Shown here one piece after another: positions 11,667-21,057 of a DNA stretch of 33,333 nucleotides. The translations under genes were made by a program, and so were the position numbers. Below the pieces are notes generated by a model. The model was not told where the DNA came from. It searched no databases and saw only the letters and a program-made list of their open reading frames with translations. Position 1 is the stretch's first letter, and every line of letters begins with the position of its first letter. The stretch lies in the NCBI GenBank assembly GCA_012515985.1, contig JAAYXJ010000010.1:1-33333 (forward strand), read 5' to 3'. The stretch is from Gammaproteobacteria bacterium (lineage in GTDB: Bacteria > Pseudomonadota > Gammaproteobacteria > Xanthomonadales > Xanthomonadaceae).

Positions 11667-12013
11667 GCGGAGACGCGCTCGCCCTGCGCCTGCTTGAATT
11701 GCTGGACGCGGATGACCTGGACGGCGCCATCGACGCCGGGCTGGCCGGGTTCGACCCGCATGCCTGCCCCTCGCTCGGGCCCGCGCAGCGTGAGCGGTTG
11801 CTGTCCGCGCGCGACAGGCTGCTGGCAGCCTGGGCGGCGCGAGACCGCCACCGCGCCCGCAACGCACGGCTGGCACGCAAGGCGGAGGAGCTGCGCGCCA
11901 GGCGCCAGGCGCGCTCGGCCCCGGCCCCGGCCGGAAAGCGGCCCGCCCTGCCGCCTGCCGCCGCGGCCGCGCTGGCCCGCGCGCGCCAGCGCGCCCGAGG
12001 TGGCGCCCAGTGA
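11663..12013 (+). CDS. Hypothetical protein, Ala/Arg-rich, translationally coupled
   Basis: GTG start overlaps the enoyl-CoA hydratase stop (GTGA) and its own stop overlaps the nth start (GTGA); MSGDALALRLLELLDADDLDGAIDAGLAGFDPH... Confidence 0.65.
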
Positions 12014-12699
12014 GCGGTACGGCGGTGAACGCGGCGCGACGCCGGCGCGGCAGGCGGATGACACGGGAGGAGATCGAGGAAATGTTCCGGCGGCTGTCGG
12101 AACTCAACCCGAACCCGACCACCGAGCTGGAGTACTCCACGCCGTTCGAGCTTCTGATCGCGGTGATCCTTTCCGCCCAGGCCACCGACGTGGGCGTGAA
12201 CAAGGCGACCCGGCGGCTCTTCCCCGTGGCGAACACCCCGCAGGCGATCGCCGAGCTGGGAGAAGAGGGGCTGAAGGATTACATCAACACCATCGGCCTC
12301 TATAACGCCAAGGCCAGGAACGTCATCGCCACCTGCCGGATCCTGCTTGAGCAGCACGGCGGCGAAGTCCCGCGCGAGCGCGCCGCGCTTGAGGCACTGC
12401 CGGGGGTCGGGCGCAAAACCGCCAACGTGGTGCTCAACACCGCCTTCGGCGAGCCGACCATGGCCGTGGACACCCACATCTTCCGGGTTTCCAACCGCAC
12501 CGGCCTGGCGCCGGGGAAAAACGTGCGTGAAGTGGAGGACGCATTGCTCAAGCGGGTGCCCAGGCACTATCTGCAGGACGCCCATCACTGGCTGATCCTG
12601 CACGGCCGCTACGTGTGCAAGGCACGCAGGCCGGATTGCCCGGCCTGCGTGATCCACGACCTGTGCCGCTGGCCGGACAAGACCGCGCCCGCGGAGTGA
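12010..12699 (+). CDS. nth: Endonuclease III
   Basis: ELEYSTPFELLIAVILSAQATDVGVNKATRRLF, LPGVGRKTANVVLNTAFG, FeS ligands C-X6-C-X2-C-X5-C near the C-terminus; ATG at 12058 is an alternative start. Confidence 0.96.
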   Translation: MSGTAVNAARRRRGRRMTREEIEEMFRRLSELNPNPTTELEYSTPFELLIAVILSAQATDVGVNKATRRLFPVANTPQAIAELGEEGLKDYINTIGLYNAKARNVIATCRILLEQHGGEVPRERAALEALPGVGRKTANVVLNTAFGEPTMAVDTHIFRVSNRTGLAPGKNVREVEDALLKRVPRHYLQDAHHWLILHGRYVCKARRPDCPACVIHDLCRWPDKTAPAE

Positions 12700-12750
12700 G
12701 CCTGCACATGGCCGTCACGAAGTTGCACCCCGTGTGATCCTGACCGGTTC

Positions 12751-12768
12751 CTGTCACAAAACCGTCAA
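12751..12768 (+). promoter_or_regulatory. Pho box (PhoB binding site) upstream of porin
   Basis: CTGTCAC-AAAA-CCGTCAA, 7+4+7 direct-repeat structure close to consensus CTGTCAT-N4-CTGTCAT; -10-like CATAAG (12777-12782) follows at PhoB-class spacing. Confidence 0.75.
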
Positions 12769-12815
12769 CCCGGCGACATAAGCTGGGCGTAGCCTCGCCA
12801 ACGAGCCCCATCGTC

Positions 12816-13961
12816 ATGTCGATTCCCCGCCCGAGCGCGCCGATCGCGGCACTCGCCGTGCTGCTTGCGGCTTCACCCCAGGCTCGCGCCATCGACCTGG
12901 GCGAAGTCGGCGGTTTCGAGCTGTCGTTCGAAGGCCTGTTCCAGGTCGACGGATACCGCTACCGGGATGACTGGAGCCACCTGGGCGACGATACGGATGT
13001 GCGGCGCTCCGAGCTGGTGCTCAAGGGCGCGCATGCCAGCGGGTTCGACTGGGTCGTGGGTTATGACTCCAAATCGGAAAAATGGCTGGACGTCAACGCC
13101 CGCATCCGCTTCGACGGACGCAGCCAACACCTGCGCGTCGGACAGTTCAAGCAGCCCACGGGGCTTGAGGAGCTGAGTTCGTCGACCACCAACGACTTCA
13201 TCGCCAAGGCGGCCGCCACCAATACCTTCGCGGTGTCGCGCCGGCTGGGCGTGGGCTGGGGCATCGACCAGGGCGACTGGAGCGTTTCGGCGAGCTGGTT
13301 TGACCGCGAGCTGACCCGCAATGAAGCCGAAGGCGACGGCTTTGCCGCCCGCGGGACCTGGGCTCCCCTGCGCGGGGAAGGCAGGGTCCTGCACCTGGGC
13401 CTTTCCGCGAGCCGGCGCGACGCCCCGGATGATGGCATCCGCCTGCGCGCCCGGCCCAACATGGACCTGGCCGGGATCCGCCTGCTCGATACCGGCGCGA
13501 TCGCCGATGCGCGGCGGGCCACCACGGTGGGCGCGGAAGCCATGTGGATCCAGGGCCCGGTCAAGGTGCAGGCGGAATGGTTCGAGTCCACCGTGGAGCG
13601 CCGCGACAGCCGGGACTTCGACGGGTCCGGCGGCTATGCCTCGGTGGTGTGGCAGCCCGGCGGGCAGACCTGGGACTATCGCGAGGGCGTGCCGCGCACC
13701 CCGGGCGCAGGCGGTGAGCCCGCCGGCCTGTGGCAGCTGGGGGTGCGCTACGACCGCCTGGACCTCGACGATCCAGGCGCCGGGATCGCCGGTGGCACCA
13801 TGGACGTGTGGACGGCCGGGGTGAACTGGTACCACGGCGAGCACCTGAAGCTGGCGCTCAACTACGTCGAGGCCGACACCGCCCGCGACACGGGCCCACC
13901 GACGGGCTGGCTGGACGTTGATCCTTCCAGCATCCAGGCCCGGGTCCAGCTGGCCTGGTGA
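12816..13961 (+). CDS. Phosphate-selective porin, OprP/OprO family
   Basis: Signal peptide, then FELSFEGLFQVDGYRYRDD...RRSELVLKGAHASGFDWVVGYDSKSEKWLDVNARIRF...LRVGQFKQPTGLEELSSSTTNDFIAKAA...; C-terminal aromatic ...RVQLAW. Confidence 0.87.
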   Translation: MSIPRPSAPIAALAVLLAASPQARAIDLGEVGGFELSFEGLFQVDGYRYRDDWSHLGDDTDVRRSELVLKGAHASGFDWVVGYDSKSEKWLDVNARIRFDGRSQHLRVGQFKQPTGLEELSSSTTNDFIAKAAATNTFAVSRRLGVGWGIDQGDWSVSASWFDRELTRNEAEGDGFAARGTWAPLRGEGRVLHLGLSASRRDAPDDGIRLRARPNMDLAGIRLLDTGAIADARRATTVGAEAMWIQGPVKVQAEWFESTVERRDSRDFDGSGGYASVVWQPGGQTWDYREGVPRTPGAGGEPAGLWQLGVRYDRLDLDDPGAGIAGGTMDVWTAGVNWYHGEHLKLALNYVEADTARDTGPPTGWLDVDPSSIQARVQLAW

Positions 13962-13978
13962 GGCTTGCCGGGGTGGCG

Positions 13979-13996
13979 ATGTCACCCCTGCGTCAT
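13979..13996 (+). promoter_or_regulatory. Second Pho box, upstream of the glycosyltransferase/PAP2 relic
   Basis: ATGTCAC-CCCT-GCGTCAT, 7+4+7 structure matching the Pho box consensus. Confidence 0.6.
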
Positions 13997-14054
13997 CCAA
14001 GCGCAATGCCGGTGACACCGCTCGGGGGGATTCTGGGTCAAACCGGAGTTCCCG

Positions 14055-14346
14055 ATGCATGACGCGCTCGTCACCGAAACCTGGCCCCCTGAAGTCAACG
14101 GCGTCGCCCTGACGGTGCGCAGCCTGCAGCGCGGACTGCTGCGCCGTGGCCGCAGGGTCAGCGTGGTGCGGCCCGCGCAGCATCCGGGACAGGTCGCTGC
14201 CGTTCGCGGCGAGCGTGGCGGTATCGCGCGTCGTACTCGACCTGCACTACCCCAGCGACGTGCTTGCGGCCACGCTGATCGGGAGCGTCCTGGCCGGGAT
14301 TTCCATCGCGCTTGCCCCCGGCGTCGCGCTGCCGGTCATGGGCTGA
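14055..14346 (+). pseudogene. Fusion relic: N-terminus of GT4-type glycosyltransferase joined out of frame to C-terminus of PAP2 phosphatase
   Basis: Frame of 14055: MHDALVTETWPPEVNGVALTVRSLQRGLLRRGRRVSVVRPAQHPG (GT4 N-terminus). Frame of 14146: RSLPFAASVAVSRVVLDLHYPSDVLAATLIGSVLAGISIAL (PAP2 SR...HYPSDV motif), stop at 14346. Junction about 14175-14200. Confidence 0.75.
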
Positions 14347-14381
14347 GCAGCCGGGCAGCCGCGGCCCGCTACCATGGGCGG

Positions 14382-15239
14382 GTGAACTACCGCCACTCCT
14401 TCCACGCCGGCAACCATGCCGATGTCCTCAAGCACGTCGTCCTGCTGGCCCTCTGCGACGCGCTCGTTGCCAAGCCGGCCGCCTGCTTTGCCCTGGACAC
14501 CCATGCCGGGCGCGGGCTCTACCAGCTTGAAGGCGGCGAGGCCTCGCGCACCGGCGAGGCGCTGGACGGCATTGGCCGGCTCGGCGACGGCAGCGGCGCC
14601 CCGCCGGCCGTGCAGCGGTACCTGGAGGCGGTGGCCCGCTGCCGCAGCGAGCACGGCGATGGCGCCTATCCCGGCTCCCCGTGGCTGCTCGCCCATGCGC
14701 TGCGCGCGCAGGATGCGATCGCCTGCTGCGAACTGCAGCCCGGGGAAGCGGCGGCGCTCAGGCTTGCCCTTCGCGCCGACCGCCGGGTGACCGTGCACGA
14801 GCGCGATGGCTACGCGGCCATGCGTGCCCTGCTGCCTCCGCGCCGGGGCGAGACCCGGTTCGCGCGCGGCCTGGTGCTGATGGATCCGCCCTATGAGCGC
14901 CGGCTGGCGGAGTTCGACGAGGCGATCCCGGCGCTGCAGGAAGGCCTCGCCCGCTGGCCACAGGGCTGCTTTGCGCTGTGGTACCCGATCAAGCAGCGGC
15001 GCTGCCTGCAGCCGTTCCTGCGCCGCGCGGCCGCGCTGGAAGCCAGGTCCGCCCTGGCGTGTGAACTGCTGGTGCGCCCCGACGACTCGCCGCTGCGCAT
15101 GAACGGCAGCGGCATGCTCCTGCTCAACGCCCCGTGGCGGATCGAAGCGGCGCTGGCACCCGCGCTGGCCCACCTGTGCAGCGCGCTGGGCGAGCCGGGC
15201 GCGGACCACGATCTGCGATGGCTGCGGACGCCCGCCTGA
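14382..15239 (+). CDS. rlmJ: 23S rRNA (adenine(2030)-N(6))-methyltransferase RlmJ
   Basis: GTG start; (M)NYRHSFHAGNHADVLKHVVL, MDPPYERRLAEF, ALWYPIKQR, MLLLNAPW. The listed ORF 14055..15239 has a spurious N-terminal extension through the relic. Confidence 0.93.
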   Translation: MNYRHSFHAGNHADVLKHVVLLALCDALVAKPAACFALDTHAGRGLYQLEGGEASRTGEALDGIGRLGDGSGAPPAVQRYLEAVARCRSEHGDGAYPGSPWLLAHALRAQDAIACCELQPGEAAALRLALRADRRVTVHERDGYAAMRALLPPRRGETRFARGLVLMDPPYERRLAEFDEAIPALQEGLARWPQGCFALWYPIKQRRCLQPFLRRAAALEARSALACELLVRPDDSPLRMNGSGMLLLNAPWRIEAALAPALAHLCSALGEPGADHDLRWLRTPA

Positions 15240-15359
15240 GCGGGCCCGGCCCTGCCCCGACAGCGCTCATGTGGACGCCGGATTCAGCCGCACGGGGCCA
15301 CACTGGGACGGGCTGAACAAGCAAATCCTTCACTTCCAGCATGGCAGCATCCCCACCCA

Positions 15360-15911
15360 ATGGCCGCTAGAAACCGACTACCGCCGTGGCACGATGAAGT
15401 CCGGCTCGCCAATGGACGCGAGATCCTCATCCGTCCCATCCGGCCCGACGACGCGCTGCCGGTGCGCGCCGGGTTCAGCCTGCTCCAGCCAGAGACGCTG
15501 CGCCATCGCTTCCTGCGGGAGATGAGCGAGCTCACCCCGGAGATGGCCCAGCGCCTGACCCGGCCCGACCCGAAGACCACGTTCGTGCTCGTGGCCGGCG
15601 AAAACCTCCCGGCCGGCGAGGCCGTGATCGGCGCCATCGCGCGCGTCCACGCACCTGCCGGCAGCGGCGAAGGCGAGTTCGCGATCCTCGTGGGCCAGTA
15701 CCTGGCCGGGATGGGCGTGGGCCGCCAGCTGATGCTGCGGCTGGTGCGCTGGGCGCGCGGCAAGCGCCTGGAGCGCCTCTACGGCGACGTGCCCGAGGAG
15801 AACGAGCCGATGCTGGCACTGGCCGGATCAGTCGGCTTCCACCGCGAAGGCGCCCCCCGCGACGGCCTGGTGCGGATGGTGCTCGACCTGGACAGCGCCG
15901 GGCAGGCTTGA
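15360..15911 (+). CDS. GNAT family N-acetyltransferase
   Basis: ILIRPIRPDDALPVRAGFSLLQPETLRHRFL, EFAILVGQYLAGMGVGRQLMLRLVRWARGKRLERLYGDV. Confidence 0.87.
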   Translation: MAARNRLPPWHDEVRLANGREILIRPIRPDDALPVRAGFSLLQPETLRHRFLREMSELTPEMAQRLTRPDPKTTFVLVAGENLPAGEAVIGAIARVHAPAGSGEGEFAILVGQYLAGMGVGRQLMLRLVRWARGKRLERLYGDVPEENEPMLALAGSVGFHREGAPRDGLVRMVLDLDSAGQA

Positions 15912-15942
15912 GCCCGCCGCGCCCGCTACAATAGCGGGTTCG

Positions 15943-18900
15943 ATGACGCCCCCTTCCCCTCCCGCCCCGCCGCTGCCGCGACGCGGCCAGCAGCGCGCCT
16001 TCTGGCGTGCGCCGGCCTCGCCGTCCGCGCTTGCCTGGATGCTGGCCGCCGCCGCGCGCGAGCATGGCCGCCCGCTGCTGCTGGTTGCCCGCGACAACCA
16101 GCACGCCCACCAGCTGGAAGGCGACCTGCATACCCTGCTGGGCAATGACCCGGATGTGCCGGTGCTGCCGCTGCCGGACTGGGAAACGCTGCCCTACGAC
16201 CAGTTCAGCCCGCACCCGGAGATCGTCAGCCAGCGCCTGGCGACCCTGCACCGCCTGCCCACGCTCAAGCGCGGGATCGTGGTGGTGACGGTGGCCACGC
16301 TGATGCAGCGGCTTCCGCCGCTCAACTACGTGATCGGCCAGACCTTCGACCTCAAGGTGGGCCAGGCGCTGGACCTGGACGGGGAGAAGCTGCGCCTGGA
16401 ATCGGCCGGCTACCGGCATGTGCCGCAGGTGATGGACCCGGGGGAGTTCTCGGTGCGCGGCGGCCTGCTGGACGTGTATCCCATGGGCGCGGATGCGCCC
16501 TTCCGCATCGAGCTGCTGGACACCGACATCGAATCGATCCGGCGCTTCGACCCGGAATCCCAGCGCTCGCTGGACAAGGTTGAAGCGATCCACATGCTGC
16601 CCGGCCGCGAGGTGCCGCTGGACGAGGATGCGCGCGGGCGGGCCATGGACGCGCTGGTGGAGCGCTTCGACCTGGACCAGCGCCGCAGCGCCCTGTTCCA
16701 GGACCTCAAGGCGGGCAGCGCGCCGGCGGGCGTGGAGTATTACCTGCCGCTGTTCTTCGAGGCGCCGCGGGAGCGCTTCGGGGCCGCGCCTTCGCAGCCG
16801 GTGACGGCAACCCTGTTCGACTATCTGGCAGAAGACGCCCTGCCGGTGATTTCGGCCGGCGCCCGCGAGGCCGCCGACGCATTCCACGCGCAGGTGGCCG
16901 ACCGCTACGAGCAGCGCCGGCACGACGTCGAGCGGCCCCTGCTGCCGCCGGGCGAGCTGTGGCTCCCGCCCGATGCGGTCCGCGAGCGCCTCAACCGCGG
17001 CGAGCGGGTGGAGGTGGCCGGCGAGGGCCATCCGCGCCACGCGGACGCCGTGGCCTTGGGCGACCAGCCCGCGCCGGACCTGCCCCTGACGGTGCGCAAC
17101 GAGGAGCCGGCGGCGGCACTCAAGTCATTCCTGGCCAGCTATCCGGGCCGGGTGCTGGTGGCGGCCGACAGCCCGGGGCGCCGCGAGGCGCTGCAGGAAA
17201 TGCTGCAGTCGGCCGACATCCGGCCGCAGGTGCTGCCGGACTTCAACGCCTTCCTGGAAACGCCGCCGGAGCCTGGCACCCCGGCCTTGGCCGTGGCGCC
17301 GCTGGAGAACGGCTTCGCCGTCGACAAGCCGCAGGTGACGGTGCTCACCGAGCGCCAGCTGTTCCCCGAGCGGGCCAGCCAGCCGCGCCGGGCCCGTCGC
17401 GCGGGCCGCGAGCCCGAGGCGATCATCCGCGACCTGGGCGAACTCGCCGAGGGCGCGCCGATCGTGCACGAGGACCACGGCGTGGGCCGCTATCGCGGCC
17501 TGGTGGTGCTGGAGGCCGGCGGCAGCCCGGCAGAATACCTGGAGATCGAATATGCCAAGGGCGACCGCCTGTACGTCCCGGTCGCCCAGCTGCACCTGAT
17601 CAACCGCTATTCGGGCGCCTCGCCCGAAACCGCGCCCCTTCACTCGCTGGGCGGCGAGCAGTGGACGAAGGCCAAGCGCAAGGCCGCAGAAAAGGTCCGC
17701 GACGTGGCCGCCGAACTGCTTGAAATCCACGCCAAGCGCATGGCTCGCAGCGGCCTGGCGCTGGATGTGGACCGCGCCGAGTACGAGCCGTTCGCCGCCG
17801 CCTTCCCGTTCGAGGAGACCCCGGACCAGCTCGCCGCCATCGAGGCGGTGATCCGTGACCTGGGCTCGAGCCAGCCGATGGACCGCGTGGTCTGCGGCGA
17901 CGTCGGCTTCGGCAAGACCGAGGTGGCGGTGCGCGCCGCGTTCGTGGCCGCCAATGCCGGCAAGCAGGTGGCGGTGCTGGTGCCCACGACCCTGCTGGCC
18001 GAACAGCACTACCGCAACTTCGCCGACCGCTTCGCGGACTGGCCGATCCGGGTCGAGGTGCTCTCGCGCTTCAAGAGCACGAAGGAGATCAAGGCCGAGC
18101 TGGAGAAGCTGGCGCGCGGGGAGATCGACGTCATCGTCGGCACCCACCGGCTGCTGCAGAAGGACGTGAAGTTCAAGGACCTGGGCCTGGTGATCGTGGA
18201 CGAGGAGCAGCGCTTTGGCGTGCGCCAGAAGGAGGCACTGAAGGCGCTGCGCGCCAACGTGCACCTGCTCACGCTCACCGCCACGCCGATTCCGCGCACG
18301 CTCAACATGGCCATGGCCGGCATGCGCGACCTCTCGATCATCGCCACCCCGCCCGCGCACCGCATGGCGGTGCAGACCTTCGTGGGCGAGTGGGACGGCG
18401 CCATGCTGCGGGAAGCCTTCCAGCGCGAGCTTTCGCGCGGCGGCCAGGTGTACTTCCTGCACAACGACGTGGAGTCGATCGGGCGCATGCAGCGCGAGCT
18501 GGAGGAGCTGGTACCCGAGGCCCGCATTGGCGTGGCCCACGGGCAGATGCCCGAGCGCCAGCTCGAGCAGGTGATGCTGGATTTCAACCGGCAGCGCTTC
18601 AACGTGCTGCTGTGCACGACCATCATCGAGTCGGGCATCGACATCCCCAACGCCAACACCATCATCATCAACCGCGCCGACCGCTTCGGGCTGGCCCAGC
18701 TGCACCAGCTGCGCGGACGCGTGGGCCGCTCGCACCACCGCGCGTACGCCTACCTGGTGGTGCCGGACAAGCGCTCGATCACCGCGGATGCAAAGAAGCG
18801 GCTGGAGGCCATCGCCTCGATGGACGAGCTGGGCGCCGGCTTCACCCTGGCCACGCACGACCTGGAAATCCGTGGCGCCGGCGAGCTGCTGGGCGAGGAC

Positions 18901-19455
18901 CAGAGCGGGCAGATGGCCGAGGTCGGCTTCAGCCTGTACACCGAGCTGCTGGAGCGCGCGGTGCGCTCGATCCGGCTGGGCAAGTTGCCCGACATGGACG
19001 AGGAGCCGGACCGCGGCGCCGAGGTCGAGCTGCATGCCCCGGCCCTGATCCCCGAGGACTACCTGCCCGACGTCCACACCCGCCTGACCCTCTACAAGCG
19101 CATCAGCAGCGCCCGCGACGCCGGCGAGCTGCGCGAGTTGCAGGTGGAGATGATCGACCGCTTCGGGCTGCTGCCCGACCAGGCCAAGATGCTGTTCGCC
19201 ACCGCCGAGCTGAAGCTCGAGGCCACGGCGCTGGGCATCCGCAAGCTGGACCTGGGGCCGGAGGGCGGCCGCGTGCAGTTCATCGAGAAACCCAGGGTGG
19301 ACCCGATGGCGGTCATCCGCCTGATCCAGGGGCAGCCGAGGCACTACCGCATGGACGGGCCGGACAAGGTGCGCATCACGCTCGAACTGCCCGAGCCCGC
19401 CGACCGGCTCAAGGCCGCACGCGGGCTGCTCATCGCACTCTCGCCCGGGCCTTGA
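15943..19455 (+). CDS. mfd: Transcription-repair coupling factor
   Basis: CarD-like domain (GAPIVHEDHGVGRYRGL), helicase motifs GDVGFGKTEVAVRAAF, DEEQRFGVRQKE, TATPIPRTLNMAMAGMRDLS; full length 1170 aa. Confidence 0.98.
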   Translation: MTPPSPPAPPLPRRGQQRAFWRAPASPSALAWMLAAAAREHGRPLLLVARDNQHAHQLEGDLHTLLGNDPDVPVLPLPDWETLPYDQFSPHPEIVSQRLATLHRLPTLKRGIVVVTVATLMQRLPPLNYVIGQTFDLKVGQALDLDGEKLRLESAGYRHVPQVMDPGEFSVRGGLLDVYPMGADAPFRIELLDTDIESIRRFDPESQRSLDKVEAIHMLPGREVPLDEDARGRAMDALVERFDLDQRRSALFQDLKAGSAPAGVEYYLPLFFEAPRERFGAAPSQPVTATLFDYLAEDALPVISAGAREAADAFHAQVADRYEQRRHDVERPLLPPGELWLPPDAVRERLNRGERVEVAGEGHPRHADAVALGDQPAPDLPLTVRNEEPAAALKSFLASYPGRVLVAADSPGRREALQEMLQSADIRPQVLPDFNAFLETPPEPGTPALAVAPLENGFAVDKPQVTVLTERQLFPERASQPRRARRAGREPEAIIRDLGELAEGAPIVHEDHGVGRYRGLVVLEAGGSPAEYLEIEYAKGDRLYVPVAQLHLINRYSGASPETAPLHSLGGEQWTKAKRKAAEKVRDVAAELLEIHAKRMARSGLALDVDRAEYEPFAAAFPFEETPDQLAAIEAVIRDLGSSQPMDRVVCGDVGFGKTEVAVRAAFVAANAGKQVAVLVPTTLLAEQHYRNFADRFADWPIRVEVLSRFKSTKEIKAELEKLARGEIDVIVGTHRLLQKDVKFKDLGLVIVDEEQRFGVRQKEALKALRANVHLLTLTATPIPRTLNMAMAGMRDLSIIATPPAHRMAVQTFVGEWDGAMLREAFQRELSRGGQVYFLHNDVESIGRMQRELEELVPEARIGVAHGQMPERQLEQVMLDFNRQRFNVLLCTTIIESGIDIPNANTIIINRADRFGLAQLHQLRGRVGRSHHRAYAYLVVPDKRSITADAKKRLEAIASMDELGAGFTLATHDLEIRGAGELLGEDQSGQMAEVGFSLYTELLERAVRSIRLGKLPDMDEEPDRGAEVELHAPALIPEDYLPDVHTRLTLYKRISSARDAGELRELQVEMIDRFGLLPDQAKMLFATAELKLEATALGIRKLDLGPEGGRVQFIEKPRVDPMAVIRLIQGQPRHYRMDGPDKVRITLELPEPADRLKAARGLLIALSPGP

Positions 19456-19462
19456 GGCCCGG
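19445..19462. terminator. Hairpin at the convergent end of mfd and the glycosyltransferase gene
   Basis: CCGGGCC-TTGA-GGCCCGG, with the mfd TGA stop in the loop; no clear U tract. Confidence 0.4.
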
Positions 19463-19469
19463 CCCCACC

Positions 19470-20126
19470 TCAGGCGGCCGCTTCCAGCGCCAGCAGGTAG
19501 TCGCCGAACCCATGGCGGGCGCGCGCATCGCGCCTTGCGCTGGTCACGACGGCGGGATGGGGGCGTCGCGCCAGCACGAATCCATCCCGCGCCAGGGCGG
19601 CCACCAGGGCCTGATCCTCGTGCGCCGCAAGCGGCGGGAATCCGCCTACCGCACGGTACGCCGCCGCCGACACCCCGAGGTTGGCGCCGTGCACGTGCGG
19701 GTGCCCGTCCTCATACCGTTCGCCCGCTAGGAACGCGGCGCGCACGCGCGGCGCGAAGTCGAGCCAGTCGGCCACCCGCACGGTGCCGCAGAAAGCATCC
19801 GCGCCGCAGGCAAGCTGTGCCGAAAGCCAATCGACGGGAACCCGGCTGTCTGCGTCGGTGGTGGCGATCCAGCGTGCTCCCATGGCAAGCAGCATGTCCG
19901 CGGCCGTGGCCCGCGCCCGGCCCACGCAGCGCGCCTGCAGCGCCACTGTGCGGACCCCGTGCGCCGCGCAGACCGCGGCGGTGCCGTCCGTGCAACTGTC
20001 CAGCGCAACCAGGACCTCGACCGGCTCGCCGGCGAGTCCCGGGCAGCGGGCGGCCGCCTGGAGCGACCGCAGGCAGTCCCCGATCAGCGCCTCTTCGTCA
20101 TGTGCGGGCACGAGCACCCCGATCAT
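19470..20126 (-). CDS. Glycosyltransferase, GT2 family
   Basis: MIGVLVPAHDEEALIGDCLRSLQAAA...VLVALDSCTDGTAAV...TTDADSRVPVDWLSAQLA...HVHGANLGVSAAAYRAVGGFPPLAAHEDQAL. Confidence 0.85.
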   Translation of the reverse strand: MIGVLVPAHDEEALIGDCLRSLQAAARCPGLAGEPVEVLVALDSCTDGTAAVCAAHGVRTVALQARCVGRARATAADMLLAMGARWIATTDADSRVPVDWLSAQLACGADAFCGTVRVADWLDFAPRVRAAFLAGERYEDGHPHVHGANLGVSAAAYRAVGGFPPLAAHEDQALVAALARDGFVLARRPHPAVVTSARRDARARHGFGDYLLALEAAA

Positions 20127-20719
20127 CGCAGGCCCTCGCGCGCGGCGACCGACACCGGCCCCAGGCTCCAGCATTCCAGCAGAACGTCCGCATCGCTGTA
20201 CCGCGCGAGCCTGGCCAGCCCAGGGACCGCGGCCAGGCACGCGTGCACGGCCGCGGTGCTGCTGCAGCGGCCCTGGAAGTCATGCTGCCAATGGCAGCCC
20301 ACCACCACCGCGCCGGGGGCGAGGCTTTCCTCCAGCCGGGCAACGAAGCGCGCGAGGGAGGGCGCGTCCAGGTAGTAGCCCACCTCGCCCACCACCACCA
20401 GGTCGAAGTGGTCGTCGGGCCATTCGCCCGGATGCTCCATCTGCCGCACCTCCACGTGCGCCAGTGCGCTGCATCGCGCACGGGCCGCGGCCACTGCCCG
20501 CGGGTGCAGGTCGGTGCCCAGGAGCGCCTTGCACCGTCCGGCCAGCGCATGCGTCAGCTCCCCATTGGCGCAGCCGATTTCCCAGCCCCGCCCGAAACCC
20601 GGCCATGGCAACACCGCCAGCAGCAGCTCCCGCTTGCGCTGCTCGTACCAGCGCGTGCGATAGCCGAAGGGGTCGTCGGATGTCTGCCAGACCTGGTCGA
20701 GATGCGCCGCCGCGCTCAT
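20123..20719 (-). CDS. Class I SAM-dependent methyltransferase (NodS-like)
   Basis: DDPFGYRTRWYEQRKRELLLAVLP...GWEIGCANGELTHALAGRCKALLGTDLHPRAV...FDLVVVGEVGYYLD; start at 20719. Confidence 0.85.
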   Translation of the reverse strand: MSAAAHLDQVWQTSDDPFGYRTRWYEQRKRELLLAVLPWPGFGRGWEIGCANGELTHALAGRCKALLGTDLHPRAVAAARARCSALAHVEVRQMEHPGEWPDDHFDLVVVGEVGYYLDAPSLARFVARLEESLAPGAVVVGCHWQHDFQGRCSSTAAVHACLAAVPGLARLARYSDADVLLECWSLGPVSVAAREGLR

Positions 20720-21057
20720 GGCAGGTACACCTCGAAAGGCCGGTCGAAGCGGCGGATGGCCTCTTGCTTGCGCGAGCGCGCCTGCGCATCGAGCGGCATC
20801 CGGAACGCCTGGAACGGCGCGCGCGGCGCATCCGGCTCCAGCCAATGCCAGGCCCAGACCGGGTAGCGGAGCAGGCGGGCGCCGCGCGCCGGGGCGGCGG
20901 CGATCGCGGCCCGGCCGGCCGCATCGTGGTCGGGATGGCCATCGTGCTGCCATGGGGCCAGCACCAGGTCGCCGGGCGCCAGCCTGTCGTGGAGGGCGCC
21001 GGGGAGTTCATCCGCGTGGCCCGTGCCGACGATGCGGGGCCCCTCTACAGCGGCCAT
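20716..21057 (-). pseudogene. PIG-L family deacetylase, truncated: N-terminal catalytic half missing (probably non-functional)
   Basis: MAAVEGPRIVGTGHADELPGALHDRLAPGDLVLAPWQHDGHPDHDAAGRAAI...YPVWAWHWLEP...KQEAIRRFDRPFEVYLP retains the second-half HxDH motif but has no HPDDE. ATG overlaps the upstream stop (ATGGCCGCTGTAG). Confidence 0.6.

Follow-up and report, generated by a model that had tools for sequence, protein, structure and literature searches.

Remains of a probable Pho-controlled glycosyltransferase-phosphatase operon in Luteimonas suggest a lost branch of phosphate-starvation lipid renovation

A Pho box in a genome of the genus Luteimonas is followed by the joined ends of two genes, for a GT4 glycosyltransferase and a PAP2 phosphatase, which stand intact at the same place in a sister species. 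We read this scar as what is left of a GT4-PAP2 operon under PhoB control that served to convert phospholipids to glycolipids and was lost here by deletion, and give the reading as a whole a probability of roughly 0.64; the loss of a Pho-controlled operon as such is well supported. The stretch of DNA analysed (the window, 33,333 nucleotides) comprises positions 1-33333 of contig C270 of G000, a MAG-like draft genome of 281 contigs and 73.8% completeness, whose genus also contains Luteimonas granuli, aquatica and panaciterrae. On the + strand the local gene order starts with nth (12010-12699) and continues with a porin gene, the scar (14055-14346), rlmJ and a GNAT gene (15360-15911). The sister species used for comparison (G030) is near-identical and has a single-contig genome, to which blastn aligns the window collinearly at 12855-14197 (94.8% DNA identity) and at 14196-20752 (97.4%).

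At the position of the scar G030 holds intact GT4 and PAP2 genes, and the 1,386 bp missing from the window comprise most of both. What is left of GT4 is the 5' end, about 47 of 380 codons at 14055-14197 (+), with 95% amino acid identity to the intact G030 protein and without the EX7E region; PAP2 is reduced to its last 49 codons or so at 14196-14346 (+), which are 97.96% identical to the G030 gene product and still match Pfam PAP2 (E=1e-7). Of the three catalytic motifs present in the G030 protein, C1 and C2 are absent from the window copy and C3 alone is kept, and the GT4 and PAP2 halves of the scar lie in different reading frames. In the base-level view of the blastn alignment the junction falls at 14195-14198, with 2 nt of microhomology, position 14197 corresponding to 4053 of G030 and position 14196 to 5438. 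A search for a further GT4 copy elsewhere in the 73.8% complete draft found none. On these alignments the scar is a real relic of GT4-PAP2, and the lineage appears to have lost the operon by a 1.4-kb deletion, as seen in one MAG-like draft genome. An alien or phage origin of the scar was rejected, since it aligns to the native GT4 and PAP2 genes of G030. The original prediction, that the relic is what remains of a Pho-controlled GT4/PAP2 operon, is supported by the intact operon behind an identical box in G030 and by the conservation of that box across relatives. Next to the relic, window positions 12701-12854, with the porin promoter and the start of the signal peptide, do not align to G030, and the window lacks some 17 kb that G030 has between nth and its porin gene, apparent type II secretion (gsp) genes among them; the interval 12700-12855 looks like a second rearrangement.

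The box of the GT4-PAP2 operon (site 2, ATGTCACCCCTGCGTCAT) occupies 13979-13996 (+), with the ATG of the GT4 remnant (14055) 58 bp downstream, and is conserved at about -75 of GT4; its half-sites, ATGTCAC and GCGTCAT, flank the spacer CCCT. For scoring, a matrix was trained on the promoters of pstS at 29 loci elsewhere in the genus, with the window's own genome excluded, and from it a half-site matrix was built out of the averaged half-site and a neutral spacer; the latter was preferred because the 21-bp pstS matrix largely reflects a single pstS lineage, which has an AAAA spacer. Among 66,634 window positions the half-site matrix ranks site 2 first and the site before the porin (site 1) third, so that the 7+4+7 site expected before the relic is present and the matrix scoring proposed along with it came out in favour of both boxes. 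The raw 21-bp pstS matrix places the site-1 repeat second and site 2 seventh in the window, and a soft E. coli consensus ranks the two sites third and fourth. Upstream of GT4 there are two TGTCAY-type half-sites 11 bp apart, the arrangement that marks a member of the PhoB regulon, and the recovery of this site by a pstS-trained matrix indicates the same motif as in the pstS promoters of the genus. Chance occurrence was rejected, as both boxes are top-ranking in the window and the one before GT4 leaves a footprint across the whole family in which only one spacing occurs. PhoB is found in G000 over the cut-off (373.6 bits) with a PhoR-like ORF beside phoB, and PstS is present with a degenerate repeat.

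The pattern GTCAY-N6-GTCAY precedes GT4 in 27 of 38 loci, mostly at -74 to -77, where shuffles give 0.04, and a scan of spacings 0 to 13 for a GTCAY repeat upstream of these loci found none but 6. Of 158 distinct orthologous loci 70 have the strict pattern, some 75 bp ahead of GT4, a count uncorrected for shared descent; 1.94 Mb of neighbouring sequence contains 6 matches on both strands, and 0.0005 are expected per upstream region. With a pstS-only matrix 86% of the GT4 upstreams score at least 10, versus 0.9% of background stretches. The repeat and its spacing are kept though the promoter DNA surrounding the box has strongly diverged among relatives, which points to selection, and by this comparison the box before GT4 stands out as a strong phylogenetic footprint, conserved across the family and beyond. 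Xanthomonas (L122-L146) keeps GT4-PAP2 with an only degenerate box, of the form TGTCAY-N5-CGTCTT in several loci, hinting at a weakened or changed Pho control in that genus; a complete lack of the box in Xanthomonas, as read from the strict pattern, is too strong a statement, since the matrix detects the degenerate repeat in several loci at -75/-76. At some distant GT4-PAP2 loci no recognisable box was found.

The porin gene (12816-13961, +) is intact and encodes an OprP/OprO-type protein of 381 aa, 96% identical to that of G030, with a Porin_O_P domain (PF07396, E=7e-72) that spans residues 58-381 and lies above the cut-off (243.1 bits vs 20.9). Before it are Pho-box-like 11-bp direct repeats at 12751-12782 (+), CTGTCACAAAA CCGTCAACCCG GCGACATAAG, of which site 1 itself (CTGTCACAAAACCGTCAA) covers 12751-12768 (+), 47 bp before the porin ATG (12816), and the 11-bp repeat extends from there into GCGACATAAG (12773-12782). 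A Pho box before an OprP/OprO-like porin, as originally proposed, was found at this place, and Pfam confirms the porin. The box stands before many porin orthologs and is absent before others; judged from these upstream regions it is plausible, and less conserved than the GT4 box. A porin-GT4 pair was rejected as a conserved unit, most genomes of the family having GT4-PAP2 with no adjoining porin. Of the two-box Pho island first proposed, the two boxes hold as real, but their pairing is partly coincidental, the porin adjoining GT4 in only a subset of the genus.

GT4 is found in 127 of 150 genomes of the family and is kept in 47 of the 52 of the genus, and PAP2 adjoins it in 101 of 102 loci with at least 60% GT4 identity; by these counts GT4-PAP2 is near-universal in Xanthomonadaceae/Lysobacteraceae. 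The named GT4 hosts are Lysobacter, Stenotrophomonas, Xanthomonas, Pseudoxanthomonas, Arenimonas, Silanimonas, Dokdonella and Pseudomonas matsuisoli. G575 and G577, two genomes of the genus with a listed completeness of 100%, have no GT4 match at the threshold and are possible independent losses. A typical Xanthomonadaceae GT4-PAP2 locus with a Pho box also occurs under the label of the cyanobacterium Tolypothrix campylonemoides (L148), probably as a contamination of that assembly. Larger gene sets are found in other lineages. In L180 (3968-7935) and L187 a Pho box heads a row of four genes, namely GT4, one for a PlcP-like phosphatase of the calcineurin type, PAP2 and another GT4, the last being nearest to monoglucosyl-diacylglycerol synthase (5.8e-46, below cut-off); L180 is a Chromatiales MAG and L187 another proteobacterial MAG, and both four-gene loci are apparent operons. 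L227, L237 and L238 contain GT4, PlcP-like and PAP2 genes, and loci of Azoarcus and Thauera contain GT4 and PlcP-like genes, where the label PlcP-like denotes an identity assigned without a reference PlcP sequence. About half of the genus has a PlcP-like gene at other loci. The search for plcP homologs elsewhere in the genome, suggested at the outset, found no PlcP-like protein in the draft G000 and only a distant, LpxH-level match (29%) in G030, so that the loss of GT4-PAP2 would plausibly abolish the lipid-renovation route. An OlsB-type ornithine lipid gene gives a borderline match in G030 only and none in the 73.8% complete G000.

As regards the enzymes, the best NCBIfam relatives of GT4 are GlcN-phosphatidylglycerol synthase (5e-38) and monoglucosyl-DAG synthase (9e-23), both matches far below the equivalog cut-offs. 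Its AlphaFold model (pLDDT 90) has the standard GT-B fold, which does not tell the acceptor, and a fold search returned generic GT-B enzymes only, such as BshA, MshA and PimB', which do not discriminate the substrate. For PAP2 the relatives are PgpB (2.6e-8) and LpxE (6ebu, 5.7e-7), and the best NCBIfam match is the undecaprenyl-diphosphatase SepP (1.4e-14, below cut-off). The searches gave no enzyme of this exact family whose substrate has been measured. Given the likeness to undecaprenyl-diphosphatases and LpxE, PAP2 could possibly act on other lipid phosphates; from gene context, profiles and regulation it is most likely that diacylglycerol is the product of PAP2 and the acceptor of GT4. 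In the course of events that we infer, low phosphate would activate PhoB in the intact relatives, and PhoB would bind the box of 11-bp repeats some 75 bp ahead of GT4. The PgpB/LpxE-like PAP2 would then take the phosphate off phosphatidate, or off a related lipid phosphate, to leave diacylglycerol, to which GT4, the profile kin of lipid glycosyltransferases, would add a sugar; the product would be a glycolipid free of phosphorus, which takes the place of phospholipid. The 1,386-bp microhomology deletion of the Luteimonas lineage studied here has taken out most of both genes but not the box and the start codon; this branch of the response would thereby be lost, with retention of the Pho-boxed porin, pstS and phoB. 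The linkage to PlcP-like and MGlcDAG-synthase-like genes in other lineages fits the lipid remodelling that was originally suggested, the best available, if putative, reading.

Two other assignments of the pathway have to be weighed against this one. The operon would alter lipid A or another envelope phosphate if PAP2, in the manner of LpxE, removed a phosphate and GT4 put a sugar in its place, sparing phosphate without glycerol glycolipids. We consider this unlikely: PAP2 matches LpxE nearly as well as PgpB, but GT4 enzymes work on the cytosolic face of the membrane and LpxE-type PAP2 enzymes on the periplasmic face, and the GT4 profiles point to glycerolipid glycosyltransferases. Glycerolipids are also favoured by those operons that include a PlcP-like phosphatase and a GT4 resembling MGlcDAG synthase. 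No more probable is an operon in which undecaprenyl (pyro)phosphate is recycled and the sugar goes onto a polyprenyl or surface-glycan intermediate, with Pho control serving the phosphate economy of the cell wall; the SepP match of PAP2 is in line with it, whereas GT4 stands alone in the loci inspected, with no obvious polysaccharide cluster adjoining, and resembles lipid glycosyltransferases in its profile.

The relic could also be non-biological, if the MAG contig were misassembled or represented one strain variant of an organism whose operon is intact. The fragmentation and incompleteness of the draft and the departures from G030 on the porin side would agree with an artefact of this kind, which is nevertheless quite improbable, since the junction shares 2 nt only, far under an assembler overlap, both its flanks are collinear with G030, G000 has no other GT4 copy, and the absence of GT4 from G575 and G577 indicates that loss occurs in the genus. 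A deletion followed by reuse of the surviving promoter, either for a Pho-driven GT4-start/RlmJ fusion or for a low-phosphate boost of rlmJ, seems very improbable. The gene rlmJ (14382-15239, +), for a 23S rRNA methyltransferase, is in frame with the GT4 start codon, and the resulting ORF 14055-15239 of 394 aa (Pfam RsmJ/RlmJ, E=1.8e-64) consists of 47 GT4 residues, 62 out-of-frame residues and RlmJ. The open frame, the intact Pho box and the interval between box and rlmJ, in which no terminator-like site was found on the + strand, speak for such reuse, but in G030 rlmJ also lies directly behind PAP2 with an open upstream frame, so that openness is expected in GC-rich DNA. The window matches the same place of G030 at 98% DNA identity over 14200-16200, and because rlmJ already follows PAP2 there, it is not newly captured, and by this gene order nothing new need have happened. 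It is possible that the box promoter now drives rlmJ.

Going back to the loss of a lipid-renovation operon, a literature search, with most subscription journals outside its reach, turned up no account of a GT4-PAP2 operon behind a Pho box. We tentatively propose, at somewhat less than even odds, that GT4-PAP2 is an undescribed, PlcP-independent, PhoB-controlled renovation operon, core to the Xanthomonadaceae (Lysobacter, Stenotrophomonas, Xanthomonas, Luteimonas) and belonging to a module GT4-[PlcP]-PAP2-[GT4] spread more widely among Proteobacteria, of which operon the window would be a natural knockout with its promoter preserved. If so, most of the family, including plant pathogens, biocontrol strains and opportunists, would have a renovation operon missed by searches for plcP/agt. 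Two named genes, their promoter and a natural knockout beside the intact sister G030 make a direct lipidomic test possible. The lipid switch would furthermore bear on antimicrobial tolerance, given that analogous glycolipids change the polymyxin sensitivity of P. aeruginosa (PMC8528852).

Compared with known systems, the window porin resembles the phosphate porins OprP/OprO in its family match and its Pho-box-like promoter, and differs in setting, as only some genomes of the genus have it next to GT4. The G030 PAP2 protein shares with the lipid phosphatases PgpB and LpxE the motifs C1 (KX6RP), C2 (PSGH) and C3 (SRX5HX3D), but it is short (about 181-203 aa) and below the equivalog cut-offs, and the window copy has C3 only. 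In P. aeruginosa phospholipids are converted to MGDG and GADG by PlcP, Agt1 and Agt2, whose operons are each preceded by a Pho box (PMC8528852). With the PlcP-Agt systems (P. aeruginosa PA3219-PA3218 and PA0842, Phaeobacter, SAR11, A. tumefaciens) GT4-PAP2 has in common the Pho box, a putatively lipid-type glycosyltransferase and the low-phosphate logic; its phosphatase could likewise yield diacylglycerol, and in some lineages the operon also holds a PlcP-like gene, whereas the partner in the Xanthomonadaceae is PAP2, not PlcP, and no PlcP-like protein was found in the draft G000. Diacylglycerol may be released by phospholipase C or arise when phosphatidate is dephosphorylated, phosphatidate phosphatase being a recognised alternative (PMC4796936); GT4-PAP2 would belong to the latter type. 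The cyanobacterial route to diacylglycerol suggested in that paper is alike in using a phosphatase on phosphatidate rather than phospholipase C, and unlike in that no operon with a Pho box and a glycosyltransferase is described there.
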